A DNA stretch of 64,000 nucleotides from Terebella lapidaria. Lineage: Eukaryota > Annelida > Polychaeta > Terebellida > Terebellidae. The notes under the pieces are model-generated. The model did not search any database. It was given only the letters and a program-made list of their open reading frames with translations, and was not told the DNA's origin. Positions 3,001 to 58,120 of the stretch are shown in pieces. The stretch's first letter is position 1; each line of letters starts with the position of its first letter. The DNA lies in the NCBI GenBank assembly GCA_949152475.1, contig OX424564.1, positions 36,640,165-36,704,164 of the forward strand, written 5' to 3'. The translations under genes were made by a program, and so were the position numbers.

Positions 3001-4420
3001 AGCTGTTTATGTAGAAAAATGCAGTGTTATTTCTAGTTTAAGGTGCACTTTTTATTTTCAAAATAACTTGAAAACTCGCTGAGATATTAAGACTTAAAGA
3101 GACCTGGGGTAAAACTGTTGGTCAGCCCGTTCACAATTCAATAAGATGTGGAAACGATTACCCCCTGTGCACACGTACCGTCTCTAATATCAACACTCGG
3201 TAGCGTAGTAATACAATATACCTTGTATGCATCTGAATACTGGTCTAAAGCAACATTTCTGTGGTTTTCCAACTCAGTGATGCACAAGTGATGTAACAAA
3301 GCCTAAAACCCTTGTCTACATACAATCTGTGGCAAGCGAGGGGATCTTTTATATCAGCACTATCGGGGGTGACGAAAACGCGTAGGGAGCACCATTCATC
3401 TAAAAACCAAAGATCCTGTACATGAAACGGATATACGCAGGGTCTCTTCTACTTGCGGAGCTTTATTAGTTGACGAATTGAAAATTCGACAACTATGTTG
3501 GTCAGTTCCGTTTGTTTGTTTGTTTGTCTGTCTGTCTGTCTGTCTGTTTGCACGATACAGGCCACAGTTTTAGTGCGAGCATCACGAAATTTTTCTGATA
3601 GGTAGGTATTCACCCAGGAAGGACACCGAAAGTTTTTGAAGAAAATCGGTTTATTGATGACGTCATCAAAAATTCTTGAAAACTCGAAAAATCCCTATCT
3701 TTAACATGGGGCGATTTTTCAAAAATTCATAACTCGTTTAATTTTTATTGAATTCTCTTGAAATTTTAGTCACATGTGTAGAATGACAACCTCTACAGAC
3801 ATTGCAAGTTTGATCCGGATCGGATCCGGATTCCGGATTCTACGGATACATTTCATTTTCTTCTGGATCCAATTTTAAAAAAATCATTGGATATTGAATT
3901 TTGAAGCTGTTTATGTAGAAAAATGCAGTGTTATTTCTAGTTTAAGGTGCACTTTTTATTTTCAAAATAACTTGAAAACTCGCTGAGATATTAAGACTTA
4001 AAGAGACCTGGGGTAAAACTGTTGGTCAGCCCGTTCACAATTCAATAAGATGTGGAAACGATTACCCCCTGTGCACACGTACCGTCTCTAATATCAACAC
4101 TCGGTAGCGTAGTAATACAATATACCTTGTATGCATCTGAATACTGGTCTAAAGCAACATTTCTGTGGTTTTCCAACTCAGTGATGCACAAGTGATGTAA
4201 CAAAGCCTAAAACCCTTGTCTACATACAATCTGTGGCAAGCGAGGGGATCTTTTATATCAGCACTATCGGGGGTGACGAAAACGCGTAGGGAGCACCATT
4301 CATCTAAAAACCAAAGATCCTGTACATGAAACGGATATACGCAGGGTCTCTTCTACTTGCGGAGCTTTATTAGTTGACGAATTGAAAATTCGACAACTAT
4401 GTTGGTCAGTTCCGTTTGTT
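1..4420 (+). repeat. Tandem array of 904-bp family 1 head units (left block)
   Basis: About 4.9 near-identical copies with an exact 904-bp step; palindromic heads begin at 756, 1660, 2564, 3468 and 4372. Each unit runs: head palindrome (arm AGTTGACGAATT, imperfect right arm), ATGTTGGTCAGTTCCG, four TTTG and five TCTG, GCACGATACAGGCCACAG, a TGACGTCA palindrome, a CCGGATCGGATCC cluster, and a tail ending TTGCGGAGCTTT directly before the next head. No family 1 3' hairpin lies between units. The array starts outside the window and is cut by the element at 4421. No gene is seen. Confidence 0.95.
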
Positions 4421-6766
4421 AGTTGACGAATTAAAAATTCGTCAACTATGTTGGTCAGTTCGGTTTGTCTGTTTGTTTGTTTGTCTGTTTGTTTGTCTGT
4501 TTGCACGTTACAGGCCACAGTTTTGGCCGGATCATCACCAAATCGTACGGATACAATGCCTAGGTATATACCTGGAAACCGGTGAATTTTGGTGACCCTA
4601 GGTCAAAGGTCAAGGTCAAGGTCACACAAAACGTTGAAAACACATAAGTGGTCATAACTCCGGTTCTAATCGGTCTAGAGACTTCTGACCAAGTGCATAT
4701 TGTAGATACACTCGAGTTCTATCGTCTGTGACCTTGACCTTGACATTTGACTTTGACCTTGAGAAGTTCGCCCCAGGTTGAAGTCAAGGTCAAGTACGAA
4801 GGTCAGCGCAGCATATTGAGTAGTATATCGTTGGAAAGGTCTTGACCCCCTGATCGCAGTGATACCCTATTTTCGGCGCTGCGACGTACACTGACGTCAC
4901 AATGACGTAATAAACGTCAAATTCCCGAAATTTCAAAAGGCCATCACATCGTCAATACTATATGGAATCTCTTGAAACTTGATATGCATACTGACAGCAA
5001 TGACCTCTACGAATTTAAGTGCAAAGGTCAAAGGTCAAGGTCAAGGTCATCGAAATCCCAGAAAAACACGTTTCCGGTAATAACATCCGTTTGAATTGTC
5101 GTAGGTTCATGAAAATAAAACCATATCGTTCAGAAGAGGTATAGCAATCGAACCTATATGTCAATTTCATGATTGACCTTGAACTTGGTCAGGAAAATAA
5201 GGTCATATGAGGAGAACTTCAAGGTCAAATTTTAAAACTAACTGAAACCTATCAAGTAGTATATCAAATGAAAGGTCTTGATTCCCTGGTACATACCTTT
5301 TCATCAGTTTTGAGCTGTGACGTTTATTGACGTCACAGTGACGTCATAAACGTTAATTTTTAAAAATTTCAAACGGTCATAGTGTCCACACATTTTGTTT
5401 GATTCTGATGAAATTTTACAGATACAATATATATATTCATGCACAGACAATGCACAATTTTTGTGACTCAAGGTCCAAAGTCAAGGTCAAGGTCACGCAA
5501 AATGTTAAAAACACATAAGTGGCCATAACTCCGGTTCTATTCGTGCTAGAGACTTCAAACCAAGTTCATATTGTAGATAAACTCGAGTTCTATCTTCTGT
5601 GACCTTGACCTCGGCATTTGAGCTTGACCTTGAGAGTTTGCCATGAGGTGAATGTCAAGGTCAGGTACGAAGGTCAGCGAATCATATCGAGTAGTATATC
5701 GTTGGAAAGGTCTTGGGCCCCTGATTGCAGTGATACCTTATTTTCGGCACTGCGACGTACACTCACGTCACAATGACGTCATAAACGTCAAATTACCGAA
5801 ATTTCAAAAGGCCATAACAGCGTCAATACTGTATGGAATATCTTGAAACTTGACATGCATATTAATAGCATTGACCTCTACGAATTGAAATACAAAGGTC
5901 AAAGGTCAAGGTCATCGAAATCCTAGAAAAACACCTTTTCGGTTATAACATCTGCTTGAATCATTGTAGTCTCATAAAATTTGAACCATATCATTCAGAA
6001 GAGGCATGGTAACCATATGTACATGTCAATTTTATAATTGACCTTGAACTTGGTCGCAAAAATGAGGACACATTCAAAACTTCAAGGTCAAATTTTCAAA
6101 CTAACTGAAACATATCACAGTTTAGGTCGGATCATCACCAAACTTTATGGGAACACTTTTTAGGCTCAAAGCCAGGCACCCATTGATTTTAGTCAAATTC
6201 GCCTGAAAAATGTTGCCATGGCAACGGAAAAACTGCTTTGCATTCTATTGTTATCATCAAAATCTAGTTTGTTCTTCGTATATTACCGCTCTACAAGCCA
6301 CAGTTTTGGACGTATCATGACCAAATTGTACGTATAAAATGCTTATGTGTATACTTGCAAATGGGTGAAATTTGGGGACCCTAGGTCAAAGGTCAAGGTC
6401 AAGGTCACATAAAGTGTCGAAAACACATAAATGGCCATAACTTCGGTTCTAATCGCCCTAGAGACTTCAAACCAAGTTCATATTGTAGATTAACTCGAGT
6501 TCTATCTTCTGTGACCTTGACCTTGACATTTGACCTTCGACCTCATTTTCAAGGTCAGAGCACAATGTGGCTAATATATCGCTTTTTATCGACTTCACAG
6601 CTTTGGACATACATGTATAGGAAATGATATATGTTATATCTTCTCATGATTTGAAAATTGAGGTCAGAGCACAAAATGGCTAATATCTCACTAAAACATA
6701 TATCTAAAACATATATTGTCCGGTAACCTTCCTAATTCGTCAACTGCCGGGCCTATGGCCCCTCGT
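4421..6766 (+). mobile_element. Family 1B Helentron/HINE-like element, copy 1 (complete)
   Basis: Complete non-autonomous element of about 2.35 kb. The head palindrome at 4421-4447 has perfect 12-nt arms AGTTGACGAATT and AATTCGTCAACT. The 3' side repeats AATTCGTCAACT and is followed by hairpin GGGCCTATGGCCC (6749-6761) and CCTCG. It sits inside the TTTG tract of the 904-bp array; host sequence resumes at 6766-6767 with no obvious target-site duplication. The body has three related modules (near 4600, 5470 and 6380) rich in AGGTCA half-sites and TGACGTCA sites, plus a perfect GTTGCCATGGCAAC palindrome at 6212-6225. No coding capacity is visible. Assignment to Helentron-type elements rests on end structure only. 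Confidence 0.8.
6749..6761 (+). other. Family 1 3' terminal hairpin (type example)
   Basis: GGGCC-TAT-GGCCC lies directly after the inverted head arm AATTCGTCAACT and before CCTCG. The same hairpin occurs at 12425-12437, 29244-29256, 31592-31604, 42243-42255, 43278-43290, 44666-44678, 45703-45715 and 48223-48235, and each marks the right end of a family 1 element. A hairpin close to the 3' end is typical of Helitron and Helentron elements, where it is thought to act in termination. Confidence 0.8.
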
Positions 6767-9700
6767 TTGTTTGTTTGTCTGTCTGTCTGTCTGTCTGTTT
6801 GCACGATACAGGCCACAGTTTTAGTGCGAGCATCACGAAATTTTTCTGATAGGTAGGTATTCACCCAGGAAGGACACCGAAAGTTTTTGAAGAAAATCGG
6901 TTTATTGATGACGTCATCAAAAATTCTTGAAAACTCGAAAAATCCCTATCTTTAACATGGGGCGATTTTTCAAAAATTCATAACTCGTTTAATTTTTATT
7001 GAATTCTCTTGAAATTTTAGTCACATGTGTAGAATGACAACCTCTACAGACATTGCAAGTTTGATCCGGATCGGATCCGGATTCCGGATTCTACGGATAC
7101 ATTTCATTTTCTTCTGGATCCAATTTTAAAAAAATCATTGGATATTGAATTTTGAAGCTGTTTATGTAGAAAAATGCAGTGTTATTTCTAGTTTAAGGTG
7201 CACTTTTTATTTTCAAAATAACTTGAAAACTCGCTGAGATATTAAGACTTAAAGAGACCTGGGGTAAAACTGTTGGTCAGCCCGTTCACAATTCAATAAG
7301 ATGTGGAAACGATTACCCCCTGTGCACACGTACCGTCTCTAATATCAACACTCGGTAGCGTAGTAATACAATATACCTTGTATGCATCTGAATACTGGTC
7401 TAAAGCAACATTTCTGTGGTTTTCCAACTCAGTGATGCACAAGTGATGTAACAAAGCCTAAAACCCTTGTCTACATACAATCTGTGGCAAGCGAGGGGAT
7501 CTTTTATATCAGCACTATCGGGGGTGACGAAAACGCGTAGGGAGCACCATTCATCTAAAAACCAAAGATCCTGTACATGAAACGGATATACGCAGGGTCT
7601 CTTCTACTTGCGGAGCTTTATTAGTTGACGAATTGAAAATTCGACAACTATGTTGGTCAGTTCCGTTTGTTTGTTTGTTTGTCTGTCTGTCTGTCTGTCT
7701 GTTTGCACGATACAGGCCACAGTTTTAGTGCGAGCATCACGAAATTTTTCTGATAGGTAGGTATTCACCCAGGAAGGACACCGAAAGTTTTTGAAGAAAA
7801 TCGGTTTATTGATGACGTCATCAAAAATTCTTGAAAACTCGAAAAATCCCTATCTTTAACATGGGGCGATTTTTCAAAAATTCATAACTCGTTTAATTTT
7901 TATTGAATTCTCTTGAAATTTTAGTCACATGTGTAGAATGACAACCTCTACAGACATTGCAAGTTTGATCCGGATCGGATCCGGATTCCGGATTCTACGG
8001 ATACATTTCATTTTCTTCTGGATCCAATTTTAAAAAAATCATTGGATATTGAATTTTGAAGCTGTTTATGTAGAAAAATGCAGTGTTATTTCTAGTTTAA
8101 GGTGCACTTTTTATTTTCAAAATAACTTGAAAACTCGCTGAGATATTAAGACTTAAAGAGACCTGGGGTAAAACTGTTGGTCAGCCCGTTCACAATTCAA
8201 TAAGATGTGGAAACGATTACCCCCTGTGCACACGTACCGTCTCTAATATCAACACTCGGTAGCGTAGTAATACAATATACCTTGTATGCATCTGAATACT
8301 GGTCTAAAGCAACATTTCTGTGGTTTTCCAACTCAGTGATGCACAAGTGATGTAACAAAGCCTAAAACCCTTGTCTACATACAATCTGTGGCAAGCGAGG
8401 GGATCTTTTATATCAGCACTATCGGGGGTGACGAAAACGCGTAGGGAGCACCATTCATCTAAAAACCAAAGATCCTGTACATGAAACGGATATACGCAGG
8501 GTCTCTTCTACTTGCGGAGCTTTATTAGTTGACGAATTGAAAATTCGACAACTATGTTGGTCAGTTCCGTTTGTTTGTTTGTTTGTCTGTCTGTCTGTCT
8601 GTCTGTTTGCACGATACAGGCCACAGTTTTAGTGCGAGCATCACGAAATTTTTCTGATAGGTAGGTATTCACCCAGGAAGGACACCGAAAGTTTTTGAAG
8701 AAAATCGGTTTATTGATGACGTCATCAAAAATTCTTGAAAACTCGAAAAATCCCTATCTTTAACATGGGGCGATTTTTCAAAAATTCATAACTCGTTTAA
8801 TTTTTATTGAATTCTCTTGAAATTTTAGTCACATGTGTAGAATGACAACCTCTACAGACATTGCAAGTTTGATCCGGATCGGATCCGGATTCCGGATTCT
8901 ACGGATACATTTCATTTTCTTCTGGATCCAATTTTAAAAAAATCATTGGATATTGAATTTTGAAGCTGTTTATGTAGAAAAATGCAGTGTTATTTCTAGT
9001 TTAAGGTGCACTTTTTATTTTCAAAATAACTTGAAAACTCGCTGAGATATTAAGACTTAAAGAGACCTGGGGTAAAACTGTTGGTCAGCCCGTTCACAAT
9101 TCAATAAGATGTGGAAACGATTACCCCCTGTGCACACGTACCGTCTCTAATATCAACACTCGGTAGCGTAGTAATACAATATACCTTGTATGCATCTGAA
9201 TACTGGTCTAAAGCAACATTTCTGTGGTTTTCCAACTCAGTGATGCACAAGTGATGTAACAAAGCCTAAAACCCTTGTCTACATACAATCTGTGGCAAGC
9301 GAGGGGATCTTTTATATCAGCACTATCGGGGGTGACGAAAACGCGTAGGGAGCACCATTCATCTAAAAACCAAAGATCCTGTACATGAAACGGATATACG
9401 CAGGGTCTCTTCTACTTGCGGAGCTTTATTAGTTGACGAATTGAAAATTCGACAACTATGTTGGTCAGTTCCGTTTGTTTGTTTGTTTGTCTGTCTGTCT
9501 GTCTGTCTGTTTGCACGATACAGGCCACAGTTTTAGTGCGAGCATCACGAAATTTTTCTGATAGGTAGGTATTCACCCAGGAAGGACACCGAAAGTTTTT
9601 GAAGAAAATCGGTTTATTGATGACGTCATCAAAAATTCTTGAAAACTCGAAAAATCCCTATCTTTAACATGGGGCGATTTTTCAAAAATTCATAACTCGT

Positions 9701-11144
9701 TTAATTTTTATTGAATTCTCTTGAAATTTTAGTCACATGTGTAGAATGACAACCTCTACAGACATTGCAAGTTTGATCCGGATCGGATCCGGATTCCGGA
9801 TTCTACGGATACATTTCATTTTCTTCTGGATCCAATTTTAAAAAAATCATTGGATATTGAATTTTGAAGCTGTTTATGTAGAAAAATGCAGTGTTATTTC
9901 TAGTTTAAGGTGCACTTTTTATTTTCAAAATAACTTGAAAACTCGCTGAGATATTAAGACTTAAAGAGACCTGGGGTAAAACTGTTGGTCAGCCCGTTCA
10001 CAATTCAATAAGATGTGGAAACGATTACCCCCTGTGCACACGTACCGTCTCTAATATCAACACTCGGTAGCGTAGTAATACAATATACCTTGTATGCATC
10101 TGAATACTGGTCTAAAGCAACATTTCTGTGGTTTTCCAACTCAGTGATGCACAAGTGATGTAACAAAGCCTAAAACCCTTGTCTACATACAATCTGTGGC
10201 AAGCGAGGGGATCTTTTATATCAGCACTATCGGGGGTGACGAAAACGCGTAGGGAGCACCATTCATCTAAAAACCAAAGATCCTGTACATGAAACGGATA
10301 TACGCAGGGTCTCTTCTACTTGCGGAGCTTTATTAGTTGACGAATTGAAAATTCGACAACTATGTTGGTCAGTTCCGTTTGTTTGTTTGTTTGTCTGTCT
10401 GTCTGTCTGTCTGTTTGCACGATACAGGCCACAGTTTTAGTGCGAGCATCACGAAATTTTTCTGATAGGTAGGTATTCACCCAGGAAGGACACCGAAAGT
10501 TTTTGAAGAAAATCGGTTTATTGATGACGTCATCAAAAATTCTTGAAAACTCGAAAAATCCCTATCTTTAACATGGGGCGATTTTTCAAAAATTCATAAC
10601 TCGTTTAATTTTTATTGAATTCTCTTGAAATTTTAGTCACATGTGTAGAATGACAACCTCTACAGACATTGCAAGTTTGATCCGGATCGGATCCGGATTC
10701 CGGATTCTACGGATACATTTCATTTTCTTCTGGATCAAATTTTAAAAAAATCATTGGATATTGAATTTTGAAGCTGTTTATGTAGAAAAATGCAGTGTTA
10801 TTTCTAGTTTAAGGTGCACTTTTTATTTTCAAAATAACTTGAAAACTCGCTGAGATATTAAGACTTAAAGAGACCTGGGGTAAAACTGTTGGTCAGCCCG
10901 TTCACAATTCAATAAGATGTGGAAACGATTACCCCCTGTGCACACGTACCGTCTCTAATATCAACACTCGGTAGCGTAGTAATACAATATACCTTGTATG
11001 CATCTGAATACTGGTCTAAAGCAACATTTCTGTGGTTTTCCAACTCAGTGATGCACAAGTGATGTAACAAAGCCTAAAACCCTTGTCTACATACAATCTG
11101 TGGCAAGCGAGGGGATCTTTTATATCAGCACTATCGGGGGTGAC
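6767..11144 (+). repeat. Tandem array of 904-bp family 1 head units (right block)
   Basis: Continuation of the array interrupted at 4421, with heads at 7623, 8527, 9431 and 10335 (steps exactly 904). The last unit carries at least one private substitution (GGATCAAAT near 10735 instead of GGATCCAAT). After GGGGGTGACG at about 11144 it departs from the unit consensus and runs into the unique 3' body. This is as expected if this copy is the original right end of the element whose 5' part was multiplied. Confidence 0.93.
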
Positions 11145-12442
11145 GGCGTATGAATCAATACTGTTGCCGGGTTTTAGCAGTAATTTGGCCGAGGACCAAA
11201 GGTTCTGTTCATGCACCAGATATATTTTTTCTTGAGTTTCTTCTGTTACTTGGCGAAATCATTGTTCGCAACAATGCAGCCACAATTTGCGTGTGATCCA
11301 AACCACGCTCACCACATGTAACAATCTGCCTCCAACCTAAAGCAGCCCAATTACGAGGGCCGAATGGTGATGTCACTAGACACTGCCAAACATTGGCAAA
11401 ATCCTCATCTCTCATCATTGCCAAAGTACAAAACAAATTTAAAAATTCAAAAAGCATTCAAATTGAGACCGACTTCCTTCAAATTTGGTATGCCTCTACA
11501 TGTTAACATTTTTCATCAATGTATGAAGTTTTGACTGGATCATTTAAACGCCAATGACGTCATGACGTCAAATGTCAATTTTCGAAATATGGCTGTATCT
11601 CGGTAAATATTTCTCCCAGAATGGATCGGATTACACCATTGGAAAGCTTGTTCAATTCTGCTTGAGGCAGGTGATGTGTGATTCTATCCCGCCATGACAA
11701 ATTTTCAGTATGACGACATAAACGTAGTTCCCATAATGCCAGTGTTTCAAAATGTCAATGTTCTATGAAAGCCTATCATTTTCACATTCAATTTTGCTGC
11801 AAATGAATTGTAATTGTCTGCGAATGTGTAGCACTATCAATCGTATGTCATGTTTCAACTGATTGGTGAAATGCCATTGACGTCATAAATATTATCTTAA
11901 GATATTATTATAATGTTTTCCAACCTGAATATAACATTTGACCTTGGTAACTATAATAAATGATACTATATCAAATCAGTAAAAATTTATAAACATAATA
12001 TTAACAGGTATATTTAGAAACACCAGTATATCAGGTTTGTAGCATGCCATTGACGATATATGACGTCATAATAACATAAGATTTCCAGCATGGGTGTGAC
12101 CTGTAGCCTCTGGTTCGCTTTTTTTTTCATTAGCACTTGACCGTCCATATTTCTAGCTTGAATTCTTCTAAGCTTGGAGGATGTATTCTGCAGAACGAGC
12201 GCTCCAGGCCACGTGATTTTGGTGCTCCTAATATGAAGAAAAATTTTGACAAGTTTGGCCTTTAGGCCAATGGTATCTGCTTGACAAAATTAAGATTTCG
12301 ACTTCCGGAGATGTATTTATCTCGGATCATTTATCCACGACATGTACAATGTCTAAAGGGTGGCCCCATTACTATAACCTTGACCTTTACATTAAAACGA
12401 AAGTTTGCGAATTCGTCAACTGCCGGGCCTATGGCCCCTCGT
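11145..12442 (+). mobile_element. 3' body and right terminus of the family 1 array element
   Basis: Sequence following the last 904-bp unit, ending in AATTCGTCAACT, the GGGCCTATGGCCC hairpin and CCTCG at 12441. A homologous 3' body occurs at about 27970-29260, also after an array-type unit, so this is the normal right half of the element. It contains a module shared with the 328-bp satellite of family 2 (TGACGTCATGACGTCAAA near 11555) and an older nested family 2 element. The right neighbour is again a TTTG/TCTG tract. No gene is seen; short frames here are not conserved in the sister copy. Confidence 0.72.
11248..12279 (+). mobile_element. Older family 2 element nested in the family 1 3' body
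   Basis: It begins TTACTTGGCGAAATC, the family 2 head arm, but the right arm of the head and the ATGTTGGTC motif are eroded. It ends TTTTGACAAGT, then hairpin TTGGCCTTTAGGCCAA at 12255-12270 and TGGTATCTG. About 1.03 kb. The same insertion is at 28078-29099 in the sister 3' body, so it predates duplication of the host element. The weak head makes the left boundary less certain than the right. Confidence 0.6.
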
Positions 12443-15400
12443 TTGTTTGTTTGTTTGTCTGTCTGTCTGTTTGCACGATACAGGCCACAGTTTTAGTGCG
12501 AGCATCACGAAATTTTTCTGATAGGTAGGTATTCACCCAGGAAGGACACCGAAAGTTTTTGAAGAAAATCGGTTTATTGATGACGTCATCAAAAATTCTT
12601 GAAAACTCGAAAAATCCCTATCTTTAACATGGGGCGATTTTTCAAAAATTCATAACTCGTTCAATTTTCAATGAATTCTTTTGAAATTTTAGTCACATGT
12701 GCAGAATGACATCCTATATACACATTATAATTTTGACCCGGATCGGACCTGGATTACGGATTTGACAGCTATTTGAATTTAACATTGAAAACTCCATTTA
12801 ACTTATATTTGATATTATATTTCGGTCTATTGTGCATATTTCAGCTTGATTTTTCCTACAAAGTGGCGGACTATCATGGTCCATAAACTGAAAAATTTTC
12901 ATCCGGATCGGATCCGGATTCCGGATTTTATGGATACATTTATTTTTCTTCTGGATCCAATTTTAAAAAAATAATTCAACATTTAATTTTGAAGTTTTTT
13001 ATGTAGAAAATTGCAGTGTTATTTCTAGTTTATGGTGCACTTTTCATGTTGAAAATATATTGAAAACTCGCTGAGATATCAAGACGGAAAGAGAGGTGGG
13101 GTAAATCTGTTTGTCAGCCCGTTCAAACCCCAATAAGATGTGGAAACGATTACCCCCTGTGCACTTGTACCGTCTCTAATATCAACACTCGGTCGCGTAG
13201 TAATACAATATACCTTGTATGCATCTGAATACTGATCTAAAGCAACATTTCTGTGGTTTTCTAACTCAGTAATGCACAAGTGATATAACAAAGCCTAAAA
13301 CTCTTGTTTAAATACAATCTCTGGCGAGCCAGGGGCTCTTTTATATCAGCACTATCGGGGGTGACGAAAACGCGTAGGGAGCACCATTCATCTAAAAACC
13401 AAAGATCCTGTACATGAAACGGATATACGCAGGGTCTCTTCTACTTGCGGAGCTTTATTAGTTGACGAATTGAAAATTCGACAACTATGTTGGTCGGTTC
13501 CGTTTGTTTGTTTGTTTGTTTGTTTGTCTGTCTGTCTGTTTGCACGATACAGGCCACAGTTTTAGTGCGAGCATCACGAAATTTTTCTGATAGGTAGGTA
13601 TTCACCCAGGAAAGACACCGAAAGTTTTTGAAGAAAATCGGTTTATTGATGACGTCATCAAAAATTCTTGAAAACTCGAAAAATCCCTATCTTTAACATG
13701 GGGCGATTTTTCAAAAATTCATAACTCGTTCAATTTTCAATGAATTCTCTTGAAATTTTAGTCACATGTGCAGAATGACATCCTATATACACATTATAAT
13801 TTTGACCCGGATCGGACCTGGATTACGGATTTGACAGCTATTTGAATTTAACATTGAAAACTCCATTTAACTTATATTTGATATTATATTTCGGTCTATT
13901 GTGCATATTTCAGCTTGATTTTTCCTACAAAGTGGCGGACTATCATGGTCCATAAACTGAAAATTTTTCATCCGGATCGGATCCGGATTCCGGATTTTAT
14001 GGATACATTTATTTTTCTTCTGGATCCAATTTTAAAAAAATAATTCAACATTTAATTTTGAAGTTTTTTATGTAGAAAATTGCAGTGTTATTTCTAGTTT
14101 ATGGTGCACTTTTCATGTTGAAAATATATTGAAAACTCGCTGAGATATCAAGACGGAAAGAGAGGTGGGGTAAATCTGTTTGTCAGCCCGTTCAAACCCC
14201 AATAAGATGTGGAAACGATTACCCCCTGTGCACTTGTACCGTCTCTAATATCAACACTCGGTCGCGTAGTAATACAATATACCTTGTATGCATCTGAATA
14301 CTGATCTAAAGCAACATTTCTGTGGTTTTCTAACTCAGTAATGCACAAGTGATATAACAAAGCCTAAAACTCTTGTTTAAATACAATCTCTGGCGAGCCA
14401 GGGACTCTTTTATATCAGCACTATCGGGGGTGACGAAAACGCGTAGGGAGCACCATTCATCTAAAAACCAAAGATCCTGTACATGAAACGGATATACGCA
14501 GGGTCTCTTCTACTTGCGGAGCTTTATTAGTTGACGAATTGAAAATTCGACAACTATGTTGGTCGGTTCCGTTTGTTTGTTTGTTTGTTTGTTTGTCTGT
14601 CTGTCTGTTTGCACGATACAGGCCACAGTTTTAGTGCGAGCATCACGAAATTTTTCTGATAGGTAGGTATTCACCCAGGAAAGACACCGAAAGTTTTTGA
14701 AGAAAATCGGTTTATTGATGACGTCATCAAAAATTCTTGAAAACTCGAAAAATCCCTATCTTTAACATGGGGCGATTTTTCAAAAATTCATAACTCGTTC
14801 AATTTTCAATGAATTCTCTTGAAATTTTAGTCACATGTGCAGAATGACATCCTATATACACATTATAATTTTGACCCGGATCGGACCTGGATTACGGATT
14901 TGACAGCTATTTGAATTTAACATTGAAAACTCCATTTAACTTATATTTGATATTATATTTCGGTCTATTGTGCATATTTCAGCTTGATTTTTCCTACAAA
15001 GTGGCGGACTATCATGGTCCATAAACTGAAAAATTTTCATCCGGATCGGATCCGGATTCCGGATTTTATGGATACATTTATTTTTCTTCTGGATCCAATT
15101 TTAAAAAAATAATTCAACATTTAATTTTGAAGTTTTTTATGTAGAAAATTGCAGTGTTATTTCTAGTTTATGGTGCACTTTTCATGTTGAAAATATATTG
15201 AAAACTCGCTGAGATATCAAGACGGAAAGAGAGGTGGGGTAAATCTGTTTGTCAGCCCGTTCAAACCCCAATAAGATGTGGAAACGATTACCCCCTGTGC
15301 ACTTGTACCGTCTCTAATATCAACACTCGGTCGCGTAGTAATACAATATACCTTGTATGCATCTGAATACTGATCTAAAGCAACATTTCTGTGGTTTTCT

Positions 15401-15646
15401 AACTCAGTAATGCACAAGTGATATAACAAAGCCTAAAACTCTTGTTTAAATACAATCTCTGGCGAGCCAGGGGCTCTTTTATATCAGCACTATCGGGGGT
15501 GACGAAAACGCGTAGGGAGCACCATTCATCTAAAAACCAAAGATCCTGTACATGAAACGGATATACGCAGGGTCTCTTCTACTTGCGGAGCTTTATTAGT
15601 TGACGAATTGAAAATTCGACAACTATGTTGGTCGGTTCCGTTTGTT
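12443..15646 (+). repeat. Tandem array of 1069-bp family 1 head units
   Basis: Three units with heads at 13460, 14529 and 15598 (steps of exactly 1069). They are homologous to the 904-bp units but carry 165 bp more between two CCGGATCGGA repeats (12738 and 12903 in the first unit), and have six TTTG plus three TCTG. Units differ by rare substitutions, for example GGGGCTC versus GGGACTC near 13331 and 14400. The frame of about 70 codons recurring on the minus strand in each unit is a repeat by-product. The third unit is cut after its head by the element starting at 15647. Confidence 0.93.
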
Positions 15647-15707
15647 AGTTGACGAATTGAAAATTCGACAACTATGTTGGTCAGTTCCGTTTGTTTGTTT
15701 GTTTGTT
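15647..15707 (+). mobile_element. Nested family 1 head (left end of an interrupted element)
   Basis: AGTTGACGAATT palindrome followed by ATGTTGGTCAGTTCCG and three TTTG, inserted into the TTTG tract of the 1069-bp unit that begins at 15598. It is itself cut after about 60 bp by the family 2 element at 15708. The homologous head at 24543-24603 continues at 27048, so this is the left end of a longer element. Confidence 0.8.
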
Positions 15708-16923
15708 ACTTGGCGAAATCTTCGATTTTCGCCAAGTATGTTGGTCACTTGCGGATGTTTGTCTGTCTGTTTGTTTGTTTGTATGTTACCTCTCTAGCGG
15801 CCAGAGTTTTCGCTTGATTCTTCCCAAACTTCGTGTGCATATTCTCTAGGATAATGGCTCGCGACTGCACGTTTTCGGTGATTCTAGGTCAAAGGTCAAG
15901 GTCAAGGTCACACAAAACAATGAAAACAGATAAATGACCATAACTCCGGTTCTAATTGTGCTAGAGACTTCAAACCAAGTTCATCTTGTAGATAAACTCG
16001 AGTTCTATCTTCTGTGACCTTGACCTTGACATTTGACCTTGACCTTGAGAAGTTCGCCATGAGGTGAATGTCAAGGTCAAGTACGAAGGTCAGCGCACCA
16101 TACCGAGTAGTATATCGTTGGAAAGGTCTTGAGCCCCTGATTCCAGTGATATCTCATTTTTGGCGCTGCGACGTAAACTGACGTCACAATGACGTCATAA
16201 ACGTCAAATTTCCGAAATTTCAAAAGGCCATAACATCGTCAATACTGTATGGAATCTCTTGAAACTTGATATGCATATTGACAGCAATGACCTCTACGAA
16301 TTTAAGTGCAAAGGTCAAAGGTCAAGGTCAAGGTCATCAAAATCCCAGAAAAACACGTTTCTGGTAATAACATAAGTTTGAATCATCGTGGGCTCATAAA
16401 ATTTAAACCATGTCATTCAGAAGAGGTATATCAATCAAACAAATATGTCAATTCCATGATCGACCTCGAACTTTGTCTGTAATCTGACAAAACTTAATCA
16501 GAATCTTATGAGGATTCTGGATTTTACAGATATTTTTAATGTTTTCATGGCTCCAATTTTCACAAATTTACTGAACATTCAATTCTAAAGGATTTCATGC
16601 AGTCATTTGCAGTGGTATTTCTAGTTTATGGTCCACTTTTCACATTTGGAATAAATTGAAAACTCGCCGAGATATCAAAGTAGAAAGAGCAGTGGGGTGA
16701 ATCTGATTCTCAATCCATTCACACAACAATAAGCTGTAGAAACGCTTACCCACTGTGGACATGTCCCTTTCTAAATATACACACTCGGTCGCTTAGTAGT
16801 ACAGTATATCATATATATATCCGAATATGTCAAACTGGTATAATAAAGTCTAAAACTCATGTCTAAATACAGTCTGGGTCAAGCGACAGGCCACTTTATA
16901 TCAGAACTTTTGGGGGTGACGAA

Positions 16924-16941
16924 CCGCCGGTGTACCGGCGG
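16924..16941 (+). other. Internal GC-rich hairpin of family 2
   Basis: CCGCCGGT-GT-ACCGGCGG, perfect 8-bp arms, followed about 35 bp later by a second CCGG stem with a T-rich loop (CCGGTTTTTACCGG). Repeated at 25820-25837 in copy 2. It lies just right of the point (TATATCAGAACTTT) at which the related 1155-bp array units are joined to the next head. Confidence 0.7.
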
Positions 16942-17330
16942 CGTAGATATCAACCTCATTCCCGGTTTTTACCGGTAATTGGACCAATGATCCTGTACAT
17001 CATAAGTAAAATTGCATGCTTCACTCTTTTGTTTTTTCGCACTCTAGCGTCCACAATTTTTGCGCTAGCATCCCCAAACTTTTTTGGTGTATAGCTATTC
17101 GCCCTATGACGGCACTGCACGTTTTTGAAAAAAATAAGTCTATTGATAACGTCACTAAAAATTCTTGAAAACTCGGAAAATCCCTATCTTTAACATAGAG
17201 CAAAATTTCAAAAATTCACACAGCAGTCAAATTTACAGCAGTACCTCCGAAAGTTTGTCCACCAATATATGTTGATATTGTCCATCAAATTGCAAAATTT
17301 TACTTGGATCGGTTGAACGTCAATGACGTC

Positions 17331-20945: not shown

Positions 20946-21029
20946 ATTATTCAAACTATTGGCGATGACGAACCGGGTTCGAACCGGGTTTTTATAAATA
21001 TCTTGTATATATATGCATAGGATATTGTT

Positions 21030-44682: not shown

Positions 44683-44683
44683 T

Positions 44684-45719
44684 GATTGTATGTCCATCAG
44701 TAAGATGTCTGTTAGCACGATAGCGACCACAATTCTGGAGATATTTTCACGAAAATTTACACGGTTATTCTTTATGTTAAAGACTAGAAATGGTTCAATT
44801 TTCGTGAAAATCGGTTGAGTGAAGACGTCACAAAAATATCTAAAAAATTCCTCACGCTGCCGCCACAGTAGCCACACCAATGCCCAGCCATGGGATATAC
44901 CAGCATTTATTCTGAGCGCGGTCTCTCGTACGCTATATACTTCACACGCAGTAATTTCAAGTGACAGATTGGCTCAGTCAGTAAAGGCGTTAGGTGTTGG
45001 TGTGCGGGGTCAGGGGTTCGATTCCTATTGTCTTTTTTTTTTTTAAATTCCGACTAAATGACTTTTTCTGTTTCTGAGTGTTTTTTTTGTATTAATTCTG
45101 ATATGTTTTCCACAGTCACCCTTTTATCTAATTCTATTGTTTCGCGATATTAAATCAAAATCAAGCCTGAAGCAGAAAACACAAAGAATCCACTACTTGG
45201 TGCCTTTATCACTGTTTATGGAGTTTGAAAAAATAAAAACGTTTCATGAATATGCATGAGTGGAATAATTCAGTTTGTCTTCGGATGAATTATTTGATCC
45301 AGCTACAATTTTCATTGCAAAATGTTGTATTTTACGTTTGTTTCTGGCATCATCAAAATCTGATTGCATCCTACACGTACGTTTAATTTCCGAAATTTCA
45401 AAAGGCAATAACAGCGTCAATACTGTATGGAGTATCTTGAAACTTGATATACCCATTGATAGTATTGACCTCTACGAATTGTAGTACAAAGGTCAAAGAT
45501 CAAGGTCAAAGTCATCGAAATCCCAGAAAAAACACCTGTCCAGTAATAACATTTGCTTGAATCGTCGGAGTCTCATCAAATTTGAACCACTTCATTCGGA
45601 AGCGGCAAAACAATCAAATGTGTATGTCATTTCCAGATAATAACATTACTATGACCTTGACCTTTCACATTGAGATGAAAGTTTGCGAATTCGTCAACTG
45701 CCGGGCCTATGGCCCCTCG
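44684..45719 (+). mobile_element. Right part of family 1 element with tRNA-like module (H), copy 2
   Basis: Duplicate of 42261-43294 with a net difference of about two bases and scattered substitutions. It ends at hairpin 45703-45715 and CCCCTCG. Together with 43295-44682 it forms the second unit of a two-copy 2.42-kb tandem repeat. Confidence 0.72.
44961..45046 (+). ncRNA. tRNA-like (SINE-type) Pol III promoter module, copy 2
   Basis: A-box-like TGGCTCAGTCAGTAAAGG from 44970; B box GGTTCGATTCC at 45015-45025; T run from about 45033. Both boxes are unchanged relative to copy 1, while the bases between them differ at a few sites. Confidence 0.6.
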
Positions 45720-45725
45720 TTTGTT

Positions 45726-48240
45726 AGTTGACGAATTAAAATTCGTCAACTATGTTGGTCAGTTCCGTTTGTTTGTTAATATGTTTGTCTGTTAGCACGT
45801 TACAGGCCACAGTTTTGACCGGATCATCACCAAACTTTATGGGAACATTCTTTAGGCTTCAAGTGAGCTACCCATCGTTTTTAGTCAAATTCGCTTGAAA
45901 AATGTTGCCATGGCAACCGAAAAACTGCTTTGCACTCTATTGGTATCATCAAAATCTAGTTTGTTCTTTGTATTTTAACGCTCTATAAGACACAGTTTTA
46001 GCCGGATTATCACCAAAGTTCATAGGCACATTGCTTAGGTATATACCTGGGAAAGGGTGAATTTTGGTGACCCTAGGTCAAAGGTCAAGGTCAAGGTCAC
46101 ACAAAATGTTAAAAACACATAAGTGGTCATAACTCCGCTTCTAATCGTTCTAGAGACTTCTAACCAAGTGCATATTGTAGATACACTCGAGTTCTATCGT
46201 CTGTGACCTTGACCTTGACATTTGACCTTGACCTTGAGAAGTTCGCCCCAGGTCGAAGTCAAGGTCAAGTACGAAGGTCAGCGCAGCATGTCGAGTAGTA
46301 TATCGTTGGAAAGGTCTTGACCCCCTGATCGCAGTGATACCCTATTTTCGGCGCTGCGACGTACACTGACGTCACAATGACGTCATAAACGTCAAATTCC
46401 CGAAATTTCAAAAGGCCATAACATCGTCAATACTGCATGGAATCTCTTGAAACTTGATATGCATATTGACAGCAATGACCTCTACGAATTTAAGTGCAAA
46501 GGTCAAAGGTCAAGGTCAAGGTCATCGAAATCCCAGAAAAACACGTTTCCGGTAATAACGTCCGTTATAATTGTCGTAGGTTCATGAAATTTGAACCATA
46601 TCGTTCAGAAGAGGTATAGCAATCGAACCTATATGTCAATTTCATGATTGACCTTGAACTTGGTCAGGAAAATAAGGTCATATGAGGAGAACTTCAAGGT
46701 CAAATTTTAAAACTAACTGAAACCTATCAAGTAGTATATCAAATGAAAGGTCTTGATTCCCTGGTACATACCTTTTCATCAGTTTTGAGCTGTGACGTTT
46801 ATTGACGTCACAGTGACGTCATAAACGTTAATTTTTCAAAATTTCAAACGGTCATAGTGTCCACAAATTTTGTTTGATTCTGATGAAATTTTACAGATAC
46901 AATATATATATTCATGCACAGACAATGCACAATTTTTGTGACTCAAGGTCCAAAGTCAAGGTCAAGGTCACGCAAAATGTTAAAAACACATAAGTGGCCA
47001 TAACTCCGGTTCTATTTGTGCTAAAGACTTCAAACCAAGTTCATATTGTAGATAAACTCGAGTTCTATCTTCTGTGACCTTGACCTCGGCATTTGACCTT
47101 GACCTTGAGAGTTTGCCATGAGGTGAATGTCAAGGTCAGGTACGAAGGTCAGCGAATCATATCGAGTAGTATATCGTTGGAAAGGTCTTGGGCCCCTGAT
47201 TGCAGTGATACCTTATTTTCGGCGCTGCGACGTACACTCACGTCACAATGACGTCATAAACGTCAAATTACCGAAATTTCAAAAGGCCATAACAGCGTCA
47301 ATACTGTATGGAATATCTTGAAACTTGACATGCATATTAATAGCATTGACCTCTACGAATTGAAATACAAAGGTCAAGGTCAAGGTCATCGAAATCCTAG
47401 AAAAACACCTTTTCGGTTATAACATCTGCTTGAATCATTGTAGTCTTATAAATTTTGAACCATATCATTCAGAAGAGGCATGGTAATCATATGTACATGT
47501 CAATTTTATAATTGATCTTGAACTTGGTCGCAAAAATGAGGACACATTCAAAACTTCAAGGTCAAATTTTCAAACTAACTGAAACATATCACAGTTTAGG
47601 TCGGATCATCACCAAACTTTATGGGAACACTTTTTAGGCTCAAAGCCAGGCACCCATTGATTTTAGTCAAATTCGCCTGATAAATGTTGCCATGGCAACG
47701 GAAAAACTGCTTTGCATTCTATTGTTATCATCAAAATCTAGTTTGTTCTTCGTATATTACCGCTCTACAAGCCACAGTTTTGGACGTATCATGACCAAAT
47801 TGTACGTATAAAATGCTTATGTATATACTTGCAAATGGGTGAAATTTGGGGACCCTAGGTCAAAGGTCAAGGTCAAGGTCACATAAAGTGTCGAAAAAAC
47901 ATAAATGGCCATAACTTCGGTTCTAATCGCCCTAGAGACTTCAAACCAAGTTCATATTGTAGATTAACTCGAGTTTTATCTTCTCTGACCTTGACCTTGA
48001 CATTTGACCTTCGACCTCATTTTCAAGGTCAGAGCACAATGTGGCTAATATATCGCTTTTTATCAACTTTACAGCTTTGGACATACATGTATAGGAAATG
48101 ATATATGTTATATCTTCTCATGATTTGAAAATTGAGGTCAGAGCACAAAATGGCTAATATCTCACTAAAACATATATCTAAAACATATATTGTCCGATAA
48201 CCTTCCTAATTCGTCAACTGCCGGGCCTATGGCCCCTCGT
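45726..48240 (+). mobile_element. Family 1B Helentron/HINE-like element, copy 3 (long form)
   Basis: About 2.5 kb. Perfect head palindrome with 2-nt loop (45726-45751), TTTG repeats, then an extra 5' segment holding GTTGCCATGGCAAC (45904-45917) and CACAGTTTTAGCCGGATTAT, then the same modules as copies 1 and 2, a second GTTGCCATGGCAAC at 47686-47699, hairpin 48223-48235 and CCCCTCG. The extra segment resembles the module near 6130-6230, so the 1B body is built from reiterated modules. The right flank is the TTTG/TCTG tract of the next array. Confidence 0.8.
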
Positions 48241-53630: not shown

Positions 53631-53984
53631 ACTTGGCGAAATCTTCGATTTTCGCCAAGTATGTTGGTCACTTGAGTTTGTTTGTCAGTTTGTCTGTTCG
53701 CGCTCTAGCGTCCACAGTTTTCGCGCTGGCATCGCGAAATTTTCTTGGTTCATAGATATTCGCCATAGGACGGAACTGCACGTTTTTGAAAGAAATCGGC
53801 TCATTGATGACGTCACGAAAAAATCTTGAAAACTCGTAAAATCCCTATCTCTCATCATTGGCGAATTTTCAAAATTTCAAAAATTCACACCTCAGTCAAT
53901 TTTGAACCGATAACTCTGAAATTCAGCACATGGATATATGTTGGTATTGTCCATCAAACTGCAAAGTTTCAGCCGGATCGCTTC

Positions 53985-54840
53985 AACGTCAATGACGTCA
54001 CTACGTAAAACGTCAATTTTAAAGATGGAGCTATATATCGAGAGGTATTTGTCGTACAGAAAAGCGGATTGCACCATTGGAAAGCTCGTTGAATTCTGGT
54101 TTAGGAGGGTACTGTCCGATACTTTTCCGTCATGATAGATTTTCCGCTATGACGTCATAAACGTAAGGCCTGTCATACAAGTTTTTCGGCTTTTCAGCAA
54201 ACATTCAAACAGCCACAGTGCACTCAATTTTGGAGGTAATAACCTGTAATTATAAGAACATATGTGGAACTGTATTACCCAGCCACTTACCGAGTTTCAA
54301 CACGCTACGTGCAACGTCAATGACGTCATGACGTAAAACGTCAATTTTCAAAATGGAGCTATATATCGAAAGGTATTTGTTGTACAGAAAAGCGGATTGC
54401 ACCGTTGGAAAGCTCGTTGAATTCTGGTTTAGGAGGGTACTGTCCGAGACGTTTCCGCCATGATAGATTTTCCGCTATGACGTCATAAACGCAAGGCCTG
54501 TCACACCAATTTTCCAACTTTTCAGTTAACATTCAAACATTCGCAGTGCACTCAAATTTGAAGGTATTGGACTGTAGTTATGGGAATCTATGTGGCATAT
54601 TAATACCCAGACATACACCGAGTTTCAAGGCGCTACGTTCGACGTTCATGACGTCATGGCGTAAAACGTCAATTTTCAAAATAGGCCTATATGTCAGAAA
54701 ATATTTGTCGTACAGAAAAGTGGATTACACCATTTGAAAGCTTGTTGAATTCTGGTTTAGGAGGGTACTGTCCGATACCTTTCCGCCAAGTTATATTTTC
54801 GGATATGACGTCATAAACGTAAGGCCTGTCATACAAAATT
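53985..54840 (+). repeat. 328-bp satellite module, three-copy block
   Basis: The GTAAAACGTCAATTTT motif recurs at about 54003, 54331 and 54659. Same module as in the family 2 elements at 17331 and 26227, with one more copy. Units share GGAAAGCTCGTTGAATTCTG and CCATGATAGATTTTCCGC. Confidence 0.82.
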
Positions 54841-55270
54841 TTCGACTTTTCAGCGAACTATCAAACACTCTAGCGTCCACAAATCTTGAGATATTTTCAC
54901 GAAACTTCGCTAGGTTGTTCTATATGTTAAAGACTAGGGATGGTTCAATTTTGATGAAAATCGGTTCAGTGATAACGTCACAAAACGATCTCCAAAAAAG
55001 AGAAAATCCCTATCTCTCATCATTGGCGAATTTTCAAAACGTCACACAGTGGTGAATTTATTACTTATCGTTCTGTAATTTGGCATGATCATAGCTGCTA
55101 ATATTCTTCATCATTGTGCTAAGTGTGATAGGGATTGGTTGAACGTTCATGTGAAATTACAAGATCGAATTCCGCACGCTGCCAGTACAATGTGCAGCCA
55201 TAGCACACGCCAGCGTTGATCCTGAACGACGTTTCTCCTGCACACTATACTTTACAGGCATTGCTGATCA

Positions 55271-55360
55271 GCGAACGGTTTGGCTCAGTTGGTAGAGGCG
55301 TTAGCTCTGTGTGCGAAGGATCAGTGGTTCGATTCGCATTGCCATTTTGATTTTTTTTAA
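55271..55360 (+). ncRNA. tRNA-like (SINE-type) Pol III promoter module, copy 3
   Basis: A-box-like TGGCTCAGTTGGTAGAGG (55281-55298) is closer to the eukaryotic consensus than in copies 1 and 2; B box GGTTCGATTCG is at 55326-55336; T run at about 55351. The downstream body (CTGTTTCTGAGTGGACTTGT, then CTTTATCTAATTCTATTCTT) matches the downstream body of copies 1 and 2, showing one SINE-like family or captured module. No convincing acceptor stem. Confidence 0.62.
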
Positions 55361-55681
55361 AAATTCCATTCTAAATTACGTATTCTGTTTCTGAGTGGAC
55401 TTGTAAGCATTATGCCAAGCAACCTGTGATGCTTTATCTAATTCTATTCTTTCGATCACCTTGAACGGAAAACGCTGTTCCACGAATAAGATGAACTATT
55501 TGATCGGGTTTTGTTTTCATCGAAAAATGTTGTATTTAACGTTTGTTTTTGGCATCAGCAAAACCTGACTGTATTAGTGCTAATATAATGATATGGTACA
55601 TTATTATTACTGATATAGCAATCAAACGCTGCTTACGTAATTGACGTTTCTATGGCAACGAAATCAGTCCATTATTATAGG

Positions 55682-55804
55682 TAATCGACTGAATTCAGTG
55701 TTTGAGGCACGAGGTCGGGTCTGGGCCGTAGCTCGCACGAGCTTGCGAGTGCGTCCGCGGCCCAGACACGACCGAGTGCCTCAAACACTGAATTCAGTTG
55801 ATTA
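55682..55804. repeat. 123-bp near-perfect palindrome (foldback/MITE-like)
   Basis: The left arm from TAATCGACTGAATTCAGTG and the right arm ending CACTGAATTCAGTTGATTA pair over about 55 bp with few mismatches around a short centre near 55741-55745. The arms contain GTTTGAGGCAC and CTGGGCCG. The GC-rich centre stands out against AT-rich flanks. It could extrude as a cruciform. It might be a foldback element, but no clear target duplication was seen. Confidence 0.8.
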
Positions 55805-56117
55805 ACTTATTATAATATACCGCACAATGACATGTACATCCATTGGAAAGCAAACTAGTACATTTTCTGACGTTAATTTGTGATTATTTACACGAAAACA
55901 TGAAGTGTTTTTATCAATTCTTTGACCTACAAAAAAGTCAGGTTACCAGCGTATGAATATAAACGTATAAACACCGCCGGTTCCTGAGCGCGTTGCCACG
56001 GATACGCCGTGCAATTAACACATGACCTGTATGTTCCAATACAGGAATTAATCGCACGATCGATTGTCTATACTGTACAATAGGACAACGCGCATAGGTA
56101 TATAATAATAAGTAAAA

Positions 56118-56184
56118 TTGGGGCCAGTGGATATTGGATGGGGCCAGTAATTTCCAGATGGTACTGGCCCCATAGGGCCACTGG
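56118..56184. repeat. Short inverted and direct GGGGCCAGT repeats
   Basis: GGGGCCAGT occurs twice (about 56119 and 56140) and its complement ACTGGCCCC once (56163-56171), followed by GGCCACTGG. The two possible stems share one right arm. Confidence 0.6.
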
Positions 56185-56540
56185 TATCATATGCCTAATG
56201 TCGATCCCTGCATGTATGTAATAGTTCATGCTGACAAAACGATGAATAATGCGCGTAAAATTTTAATGGTACACCCGTATATAGCCAGGTATCTATTTAA
56301 AATCTTCTATTTAAAAAAAAAATAGCAAGGTCAAAGGTCGAACTTTTTTTATGGGTAGGTATTCGCCCAAGGACGGAACCACACGTTTTTAAACCCATTT
56401 TTGTGTATATGCTGTGCGACTTAATTATGGAGTGCGAAATATATACAACTGTGGAGTTCCATTCCGGTTTGGGACTGCATGACAGGGCTATGACACACAC
56501 TTCCTATCATACCGTTCATGGACCTGGCATGGGGGTGTCC

Positions 56541-56879
56541 CTACGTGAAGCTATCCTGGTGTCAACCAGGCCTGGTGAACATAGCACCTGCGGACCCTAT
56601 GGTGTAATCATCCCCATTCCTGAGTCATACCACCAGGAAGTCCCCCAATATCGTACTCGTATGTGAGTAACTCCCGGCTGAGTGGACAGCCTTCTCATTG
56701 AGCCCACAGCGCACACATCCTGGGTGGGGATCGGCCATGATAAATCCCTCGGTCACCGATGGGATTCGAACCCGAGACCTCCCGGCTTTGAATCCTGCAG
56801 CTTAACCACTGCGCTACAGGGGCCGTATAGAGAAATGTGTTTACAACCACCGGCTTTAATTTTGCATAAAGACCGAGTT
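56541..56879 (-). mobile_element. tRNA-derived SINE-like element, minus strand
   Basis: On the minus strand a tRNA-like segment at about 56757-56823 reads GTAGCGCAGTGGTTAAGC (A box region) and GGGTTCGAATCCC (B box, palindromic). A 14-bp direct repeat, GCATGGGGGTGTCC, at 56527-56540 and 56880-56893 brackets the unit and may be a target-site duplication. The tRNA-like part starts about 57 bp inside the right bracket, which is unusual, so a composite element or chance bracket is possible. Frames of 60-87 codons on both strands here derive from the tRNA-like sequence. Confidence 0.6.
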
Positions 56880-56987
56880 GCATGGGGGTGTCCACTCTTC
56901 CCGTCATGGCAGATTACACACACACAGATGACGCACATGCGTTAAAAAGATTTCGACAAATTTGGCCTTCAGGCCAATGGTATCTCG

Positions 56988-57028: not shown

Positions 57029-58078
57029 TAGCACGATACAGGCCACAGTTTTAGTGCGAGCATCACGAAATTTTTCAGATAGGTAGGTATTCACCCAGGA
57101 AGGACACCGAAAGTTTTTGAAGAAAATCGGTTTATTGATGACGTCATCAAAAATTCTTGAAAACTCGAAAAATCCCTATCTTTAACATGGGGCGATTTTT
57201 CAAAAATTCATAACTCGTTCAATTTTCAATGAATTCTCTTGAAATTTCAGTCACATGTGTAGAATGACATCCTATACACACATTATAATTTTGACTCGGA
57301 TCGGACCCGGATTACGGATTTGACAGCTATTTGAATTTAACATTGAAAACTCCATTTAACTTATATTTTATATTATATTTCGGTCTATTGTGCATATTTC
57401 AGCTTGATTTTTCCTACAAAGTGGCGGACTATCATGGTCCATAAACTGAAAAAATTTCATCCGGATCGGATCCGGATTCCGGATTTTATGGATACATTTA
57501 TTTTTCTTCTGGATCCAATTTTTAAAAAATAATTCAACATTTAATTTTGAAGTTTTTTATGTAGAAAATTGCAGTGTTATTTCTAGTTTATGGTGCACTT
57601 TTCATGTTGAAAATATATTGAAAACTCGCTGAGATATCAAGACGGAAAGAGAGGTGGGGTAAATCTGTCTGTCAGCCCGTTCACACGCCAATAAGATGTG
57701 GAAACGATTACCCCCTGTGCACTTGTACCGTCTCTAATATCAACACTCGGTCGCGTAGTAATACAATATGCCTTGTATGCATCTGAATACTGATCTCAAA
57801 CAACATTTCTGTGGTTTCCTAACTCAGTGACACACAAGTGATATAACAAAGCCTAAAACTCTTGTCTAAATACAATCTGTGGCAAGCCAGGGGCTCTTTT
57901 ATATCAGCACTATCGGGGGTGACGAAAACGCGTAGGGAGCACCATTCATCTAAAAACCAAAGATCCTGTACATGAAACGGATATACGCAGGGTCTCTTCT
58001 ACTTGCGGAGCTTTATTAGTTGACGAATTGAAAATTCGACAACTATGTTGGTCAGTTCCGTTTGTTTGTTTGTTTGTT
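56988..58078 (+). repeat. Last family 1 head-array unit and following head
   Basis: Resumed unit of the array cut at 53630, same GTTAGCACGATACAGG subtype, ending TTGCGGAGCTTT directly before a head at 58018. That head carries TTTG repeats into which the next heads are inserted. Confidence 0.9.
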
Positions 58079-58120
58079 ACTTGGCAAAATAAATTTTGCC
58101 AAGTATGTTGGTCAGTCATT
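58079..58120 (+). mobile_element. Solo head of a further family (type J)
   Basis: ACTTGGCAAAAT, loop AA, ATTTTGCCAAGT: a perfect 12-bp-arm palindrome (58079-58104), then ATGTTGGTCAGTCA, cut after about 40 bp by another head. No matching 3' end is in the window. Confidence 0.7.

Follow-up and report, generated by a model that had tools for sequence, protein, structure and literature searches.

Results

A nest of mobile elements in Terebella lapidaria

The 64,000-nucleotide stretch of the polychaete Terebella lapidaria analysed here (contig OX424564.1, C11:36640165-36704164; hereafter the window) is a nest of mobile elements whose insertions fall mainly in a short microsatellite tract inside the 5' ends of related copies; no closed open reading frame of 120 or more amino acids was found in it. 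The elements are Helentron-associated interspersed elements (HINEs), that is, non-autonomous Helentrons, and they share one plan. On the 5' side a hairpin, either AGTTGACGAATT...AATTCGTCAACT or an ACTTGxC... version, leads into a ATGTTGGTC motif, a short block such as AGTTCCG, a (TTTG)n(TCTG)n tract and the body, which begins CACGNTACAGGCCACAG in AGTTGACG-type elements; on the 3' side a copy of the subterminal inverted repeat (subTIR) and a stem-loop are followed, in three of four types, by CTCG. These four 3'-end types are named F1-F4, of which F4 terminates in CTTCATT.

The 5' subTIR and its complementary inverted repeat fold as a hairpin (12-bp stem and z = -6.5 at 4421-4447; z = -7.3 at 32745-32778), and the 3' subTIR is complementary to the 5' subTIR, by reading exactly so in F1 (AGTTGACGAATT / AATTCGTCAACT), F3 and F4 and with at least one mismatch in F2. 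The stem-loop near the 3' end scores z = -3.6 in F3, -2.2 in F2 and -1.9 in F4 and is weak in F1 (z = -1.2, 5-bp stem). A microsatellite lies just inside the 5' end, as in other HINEs, and each of the 59 distinct 5' ends identified, in the window or at the further loci examined, is preceded by TT. Canonical Helitrons have a 5' TC end, a 3' CTRR end and an A|T target. They are ruled out here by the AGTTG/ACTTG and CTCG ends and by the TT target. TC and CTAG ends with an A|T target are also what the available text of one Helitron study gives (PMC7992393).

Much of the window is satellite-like, consisting of units of 904, 1061, 1069, 1077, 1081 and 1085 bp that begin at the 5' hairpin after TT, terminate in GGAGCTTTATT, and have the 5' end and tract while the 3' end is absent. 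In the 904-bp monomer (756-1659, + strand), the hairpin is followed by GTTGGTCAGTTCCG, the tract (monomer bases 44-83), the body and the end GGAGCTTTATT, with no 3' terminus; its array spans about 1-11145 and is interrupted. An array of 1069-bp monomers (12442-15646, +) is interrupted in the tract at 15647. Across the four monomers measured, the tract takes up 3.7-4.5% of the sequence and contains 8-10% of the TT steps, and TCTG units account for 30-55% of it; monomers within one array are up to 100% identical. The units resemble tandemly arranged HINE copies with a truncated 3' side, because two longer copies (10335-12441 and 27047-29260) match the array unit except for its last 80-95 bp and then run on to an F1 3' end. 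The first of these, the last copy of the first array (+), matches the 904-bp monomer to base 811 and then differs up to the F1 3' end, after which the right flank re-enters the tract of a 1069-bp monomer.

The elements inserted in these arrays all lie on the + strand. A 2,345-bp F1 HINE (4421-6765) sits in a monomer tract, with its 5' hairpin at 4421-4447, its own tract at about 4464-4503, its 3' subTIR and stem-loop at 6734-6765, and a right flank that goes back to TTTG. At 15647-18151, an A-type 5' block with its tract (15647-15707) is interrupted in that tract at 15708 by a ACTTGGCG element with an F2 3' end, and in TTTGTT directly after that end begins a ACTTGGCC element (18158-22406) with stacked 5' blocks at about 21030-21129, an F3 3' end and a right flank back in the monomer tract. 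The segment 24543-27047 is a copy of 15647-18151 through an 8,896-bp tandem duplication (99.9%) and is not independent. Another F1 HINE (29263-31608) starts in TT directly after the F1 3' end at 29241-29260. Tracts of 1077-bp monomers host a ACTTGGCGAAATCGC element with an F4 3' end (32745-35465) and a ACTTGGCG element with an F2 3' end (53631-56987). A AGTTGACG element in a monomer tract occupies 40809-45719 together with a 2,423-bp tandem copy (40872-43299 against 43295-45724, 99.0%) that restarts inside the tract; it is followed by an F1-type HINE (45726-48239) in TTTGTT after the preceding 3' end, again with a right flank back in the monomer tract. Finally, the 5' block of a ACTTGGCAAAAT element (58079-58120) lies in a monomer tract and is itself entered at TCATT by the next array, an exception without a tract.

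Nested insertions have two-sided termini and empty sites

A preliminary description of this DNA had placed 11 left and 7 right junctions in TTTG sequence, and all of them are present within 1-2 bases. It had the TTTG always directly after a 5' block, which holds for most junctions but not at 18158 and 45726, where TTTGTT follows another element's 3' end (CTCG). All seven right flanks do return to the tract, with positions refined to CTCG|TTTG one base later at 27047 and 56987 and to ...CA(TT)|TG at 35468. The pairs 15647/24543 and 15708/24604, described as duplicates, are indeed so, 13510-18156 being the same as 22406-27052 at 99.9%. Further junctions of this kind occur at 29263 and 31611 (CTCG-TT|AGTTGACG), 43295 (CTCG|TTTGTATG) and 21081 (GTTCTGTTTGTT|ACTTGGCC) and, with a decayed tract, at 42260 and 44683 (CTCG|TRATTGTATG). 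Within the window, tract landing does not hold at 58121 (TCATT|), at 21030 (GATATTGTT|) or at the boundaries between array units (TTTATT|).

In seven array units (at 4372, 15598, 24494, 32688, 40756, 53582 and 58018) an element begins within the unit and interrupts it, in every case in the tract. With the unit at 24494 being a duplicate of that at 15598, six independent cases are left, for which the chance is about 1e-6 at a 10% share of TT steps; the genome-wide sample described below is stronger. Five loci with both ends visible were hand-picked from the junctions described earlier, and at each the insertions are two-sided with a close empty site: the joined flanks match uninterrupted monomers over 800-802 bp at 99.75% (4421-6765), 99.6% (15647-22406), 99.5% (32745-35465), 98.1% (40809-48239) and 99.75% (53631-56986), the second and fourth of these sites each containing more than one element. 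In length, the joined site exceeds the monomer by two bases, or falls two short if a 4-bp unit differs as well, and departs by one at 53631, where the cut was placed one base early. The two-base difference fits an added TT, which may be owned by the element or may be a 2-bp duplication.

These sites bear on the idea that the heads and bodies of different elements were joined at shared TTTG tracts by unequal crossing-over or strand exchange. Tandem duplications with tract ends exist (the repeat of 40872-43299 at 43295-45724 and the 8,896-bp duplication), and the identity of up to 100% between monomers of one array is in keeping with such exchange. We nevertheless consider recombination very improbable as the general explanation, because exchange within the tract alone is insufficient to give family-specific termini on both sides of five sites that also have a close empty counterpart, and because four different 3' ends (F1-F4) adjoin the monomer tract within the window.

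Most sampled landing sites in the genome lie in sister tracts

Genome-wide searches covered the 761.6-Mb assembly (438 contigs). A 32-base probe for the F1 3' end, matched exactly, has 301 copies in the genome, and the right flanks of the first 100 places were examined; viral contigs scanned with the F1 3'-end pattern gave 0 matches. Seventy-five flanks consist of a tract and HINE body; another 16 pass through T(n) or a short tract into the 5' end of the next element, 2 show a tract without a matched signature, and 7 have no tract. By eye, the two tracts without a signature belong to a diverged HINE (L101) and to another family (L016), giving totals of 92 ends in a sister tract or at the next sister 5' end, 1 in another family's tract and 7 at other TT sites. 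An unrelated TTTG microsatellite was the landing site at none of the 100 sampled ends. Thirteen of the 75 tract flanks represent a single decayed tract type, TRATTGTATGTC, of one host family and were scored as tracts under a special rule. Merging copies alike at 90, 95 or 98% leaves 53, 71 or 86 events, each time with 7 lacking a tract and 1 in the other family and with 6, 9 or 11 in the decayed tract; the 53 events at 90% thus divide into 45 sister landings (6 in the decayed tract), 1 in the other family and 7 without a tract. Where F1 landed in array monomers (21 cases), every right flank starts with TTTG.

The F2 3' end has 151 copies, and among 20 places hand-picked from the first 100 and classed by eye, 16 lie in sister tracts or at next 5' ends. 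Sister tracts therefore dominate at the sampled 3' ends of both families, and in these samples the window is not the exception that would have undone the preliminary description. Although 15 of 25 distinct junction types fall at 0 or 1 unit, we do not claim that the first TTTG unit is preferred, since 10 of 24 uninterrupted tract types also have a single leading unit. Two of the seven non-tract F1 landings (L036 and L105) share one point in one other repeat (TTTAGTTTTTTGATTTTCGC...).

Sister tracts compared with TTTG DNA in general

As background, 19 random 1-kb stretches (1,506 N within 19,000 bases) contained 2,971 TT steps, 30 of them in TNTG tracts of at least 2 units, and by eye no HINE body followed any of the 12 TNTG tracts in those 19 kb. 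A search for (TTTG)4 gave 8,362 overlapping matches, of which the first 100 make up 49 tracts, for an estimated 4,100 or so tracts in the genome. Classed by eye, the first 20 long TTTG tracts comprised 6 in sister HINEs, 6 in another repeat with its own hairpin head and 8 unrelated ones, three of which look like one further repeat. Sister 5' blocks number at least 5,307 in the genome (7 with a reversed-pattern control), against an estimated 1,640 or so unrelated (TTTG)4+ tracts, so that about 24% of tract landings would be expected in unrelated tracts if all tracts were equal. By reading, none of 93 tract landings was in such a tract, the chance of which is about 2e-11 on 92 junctions and about 4e-6 on 46 collapsed events, figures that both rest on the 20-tract sample, class only pure (TTTG)4+ as unrelated and assume that every tract is equally open to landing. 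Unrelated TTTG tracts exist (8 of 20) yet received no sampled landing, which speaks for the sister copy as the target rather than for TTTG by itself. The emphasis of the preliminary description was on TTTG itself; the counts favour the tract of a sister element over TTTG microsatellites generally.

The same counts bear on whether the pattern could come only from a preference for T-rich DNA or TTTG microsatellites at large, with sister tracts dominating as the commonest such sites. Helentrons are known to favour TT and T-rich sites (PMC4067079 and PMC7492417, in their available text), all seven non-tract F1 landings have TT to the right, and the sister 5' blocks on offer are numerous; set against the complete sparing of the unrelated tracts among the 93 landings, this explanation is nonetheless unlikely.

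A second repeat family was seen on C1 at L150, L152, L154, L162, L163 and L167. Its head (ACCCTCGCCCCGATAGGGGCAGAGGGTA) resembles a hairpin and is accompanied by a TTTG tract and a GCGCGCATA body, and this TTTG-bearing family is possibly another HINE lineage.

Stacking and direction of 5' ends

Neighbours were analysed for the first 100 of the 5,307 5' blocks. A same-strand block lies within 150 bp of 48 of them, against about 0.1% at uniform density, and neighbouring blocks at distances of 150 bp to 20 kb are on the same strand in 44 of 44 cases; such a uniform direction would follow if the target were TT on one strand of the tract, which is asymmetric. Triple and quadruple 5' blocks with a spacing of 42-50 bp recur at three places in C1:41.15-41.21 Mb, which suggests that some stacks moved as composite elements. 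As had been anticipated, independent events are fewer than junctions, with composite elements carrying several 5' ends and segmental duplication accounting for part of the stacking. That the stacks are mostly of this kind, several 5' termini having moved as one unit, would agree with these recurrent blocks and with the multiple 5' termini and similar route proposed for Fusarium Helitrons in the available text of PMC5148889. We find it doubtful even so, since composite elements account for inherited stacks and not for their first formation by self-insertion, and leave the 3'-end data unexplained.

Autonomous Helentron genes near the nests

Of 234 candidates in a search for Helitron_like_N, 150 were scored as matches; roughly two thirds of these (104, hand count) lie in frames open for more than 2,000 codons. 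One gene, C4:28741002-28747898 (+), was scanned as two pieces with the middle 2 kb outside the scan and has DUF6570, STPRs and OTU in one piece and PIF1 and Exo_endo_phos in the other. The Rep, PIF1 helicase and C-terminal endonuclease of an autonomous Helentron are present in this genome, and open genes lie near nests; Rep/helicase, endonuclease and OTU are named as Helentron parts in the available text of PMC4067079.

Among the listed places, the F1 5' and 3' ends are spaced 2,289-2,409 bp apart in 37 of 73 pairs. At two loci they are instead 22,033 and 22,328 bp apart, each pair enclosing a gene (10,085 and 10,103 bp from the 5' end, respectively), and these two genes would thus appear to sit in 22-kb autonomous elements with F1 termini. 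Two more genes have an F1 5' end only, at 9,789 and 10,204 bp. A fixed distance of F1 or F2 ends from every autonomous gene was ruled out, as the distances vary. Orientation was counted for 100 of the 150 gene matches, with all 300 listed places of the F1 5', F1 3' and F2 ends and 60 of the first 100 5' blocks as reference: at distances of up to 50 kb from a listed HINE end, 37 of 37 genes are antisense to the HINE 5'-to-3' direction, and at up to 100 kb 46 of 47 are (18 and 21 clusters, respectively). The Helentron genes are likely the engines of the HINE nests.

Discussion

Insertion into sister 5' ends

With a probability that we put at roughly 0.8 from the sequence evidence, the HINEs of these nests transpose by rolling circle into TT, most likely under the action of autonomous Helentrons, and land predominantly in the TTTG part of the tract inside sister 5' ends. 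Several observations weigh against this reading. Seven of the 100 F1 ends and 4 of the 20 F2 ends, the latter in T-rich or other DNA, are outside tracts; many junctions are copies, through segmental duplication, arrays or composite 5' ends, and merging hosts at 80% right-flank identity reduces the F1 landings to 9 tract groups and 7 non-tract singletons. A single T stands to the right before another base at 22 of 100 F1 ends, so that a strict T|T target is not proved. The comparison of sister with unrelated tracts comes from 20 tracts in the first 21.5 Mb of one contig. As for the proposed drivers, a listed F1 end lies on the fitting side and no more than 30 kb away for 14 of 100 typed genes, only 2 of them with both ends at matching distances, and another 10 of the 14 do not fit the 22-kb spacing with both ends. 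Selection, too, could favour survivors in nests: if insertion were broad and copies persisted only where harmless, nests would be found, as they are, in array-rich stretches. We regard survivorship as improbable, given that array units are interrupted only in about 4% of their bases and that unrelated TTTG tracts are spared.

If insertion into sister tracts is the correct reading, autonomous Helentrons would drive HINE insertion by rolling circle at TT, with the C-terminal endonuclease probably nicking between the Ts. Binding to the sister's 5' hairpin may bring the transposase or the incoming copy to the target, and would then account for why unrelated TTTG microsatellites are spared. Insertion would be self-feeding because each new copy supplies a fresh tract, and nests of one orientation could result. 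In a stronger form, which we offer tentatively and at somewhat less than even odds, the element would be a self-homing transposon whose transposase, bound to a sister 5' hairpin, nicks the adjacent TTTG and installs a copy there while ignoring unrelated TTTG, so that nests and arrays grow by positive feedback; if this is true, the element's own end region is a recognition-plus-landing module.

Relation to known systems

HINE anatomy, TT preference, microsatellites in HINEs, microsatellite-targeting transposons and Helitron self-insertion are already known. A lepidopteran Helitron-like superfamily reportedly disrupts (GAAA)n microsatellites, to go by the title of a 2010 study by Coates. One close counterpart is Cg_HINE of Crassostrea gigas (PMC7492417), which, in the available text, likewise has a 5' subTIR, an inverted repeat, a mostly 4-nt microsatellite, a tandem-repeat core, a 3' subTIR with a palindrome, and a T-rich or TT target; no target-site duplication was found there, and landing in a sister microsatellite is neither reported nor excluded in that text. 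Helentrons, HINEs and DINE-1 as described in the available part of PMC4067079 share the Rep/helicase with C-terminal endonuclease, OTU protease, TT target, terminal Ts and, in DINE-1, a microsatellite. Plus orientation is the majority there, with one minus gene (Helentron-Da-40, Drosophila ananassae), whereas all 37 genes within 50 kb of a HINE end are antisense here, and self-tract targeting is not described in that part. For the Helitron2 element FoHeli of Fusarium oxysporum, self-insertion, multiple 5' termini and reversed orientation of the open reading frame are reported or proposed in the accessible text (PMC5148889), but from few cases; FoHeli1 and 2 target TNAT|A, and a microsatellite landing pad is not described there. 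MuTAnT Mutator-like elements (MULEs; PMC4486113) are likewise DNA transposons with dominant microsatellite targeting, of (TA)n, but they belong to a different superfamily, and an element-carried target is not described in the available text.

What is new is a dominant landing pad that the element itself carries; no report of an element's own microsatellite as its main target was found in a literature search that subscription literature mostly lay outside and in which sources were seen as partial text. The usual picture of rolling-circle transposons is one of weak selectivity (TT or AT), and here 108 of 120 sampled ends lie in a family-carried site. Such a target would offer a simple path by which a transposon becomes a satellite-like array and could keep new copies off genes, and filled and empty copies of the same tract side by side offer a natural system for questions of Helentron target choice.

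Other features of the window

A second satellite-like array (58121-64000, +) has a unit of 1155 bp (one of 1156) that starts at an ACTTGCC 5' hairpin and ends AACTTTATT; no known 3' terminus was found in it, and its start landed in TCATT within another element's 5' block, outside any tract. Internal tandem repeats are present in inserted elements, of about 267 bp at 33019-35409 and about 328 bp at 17316-18007.

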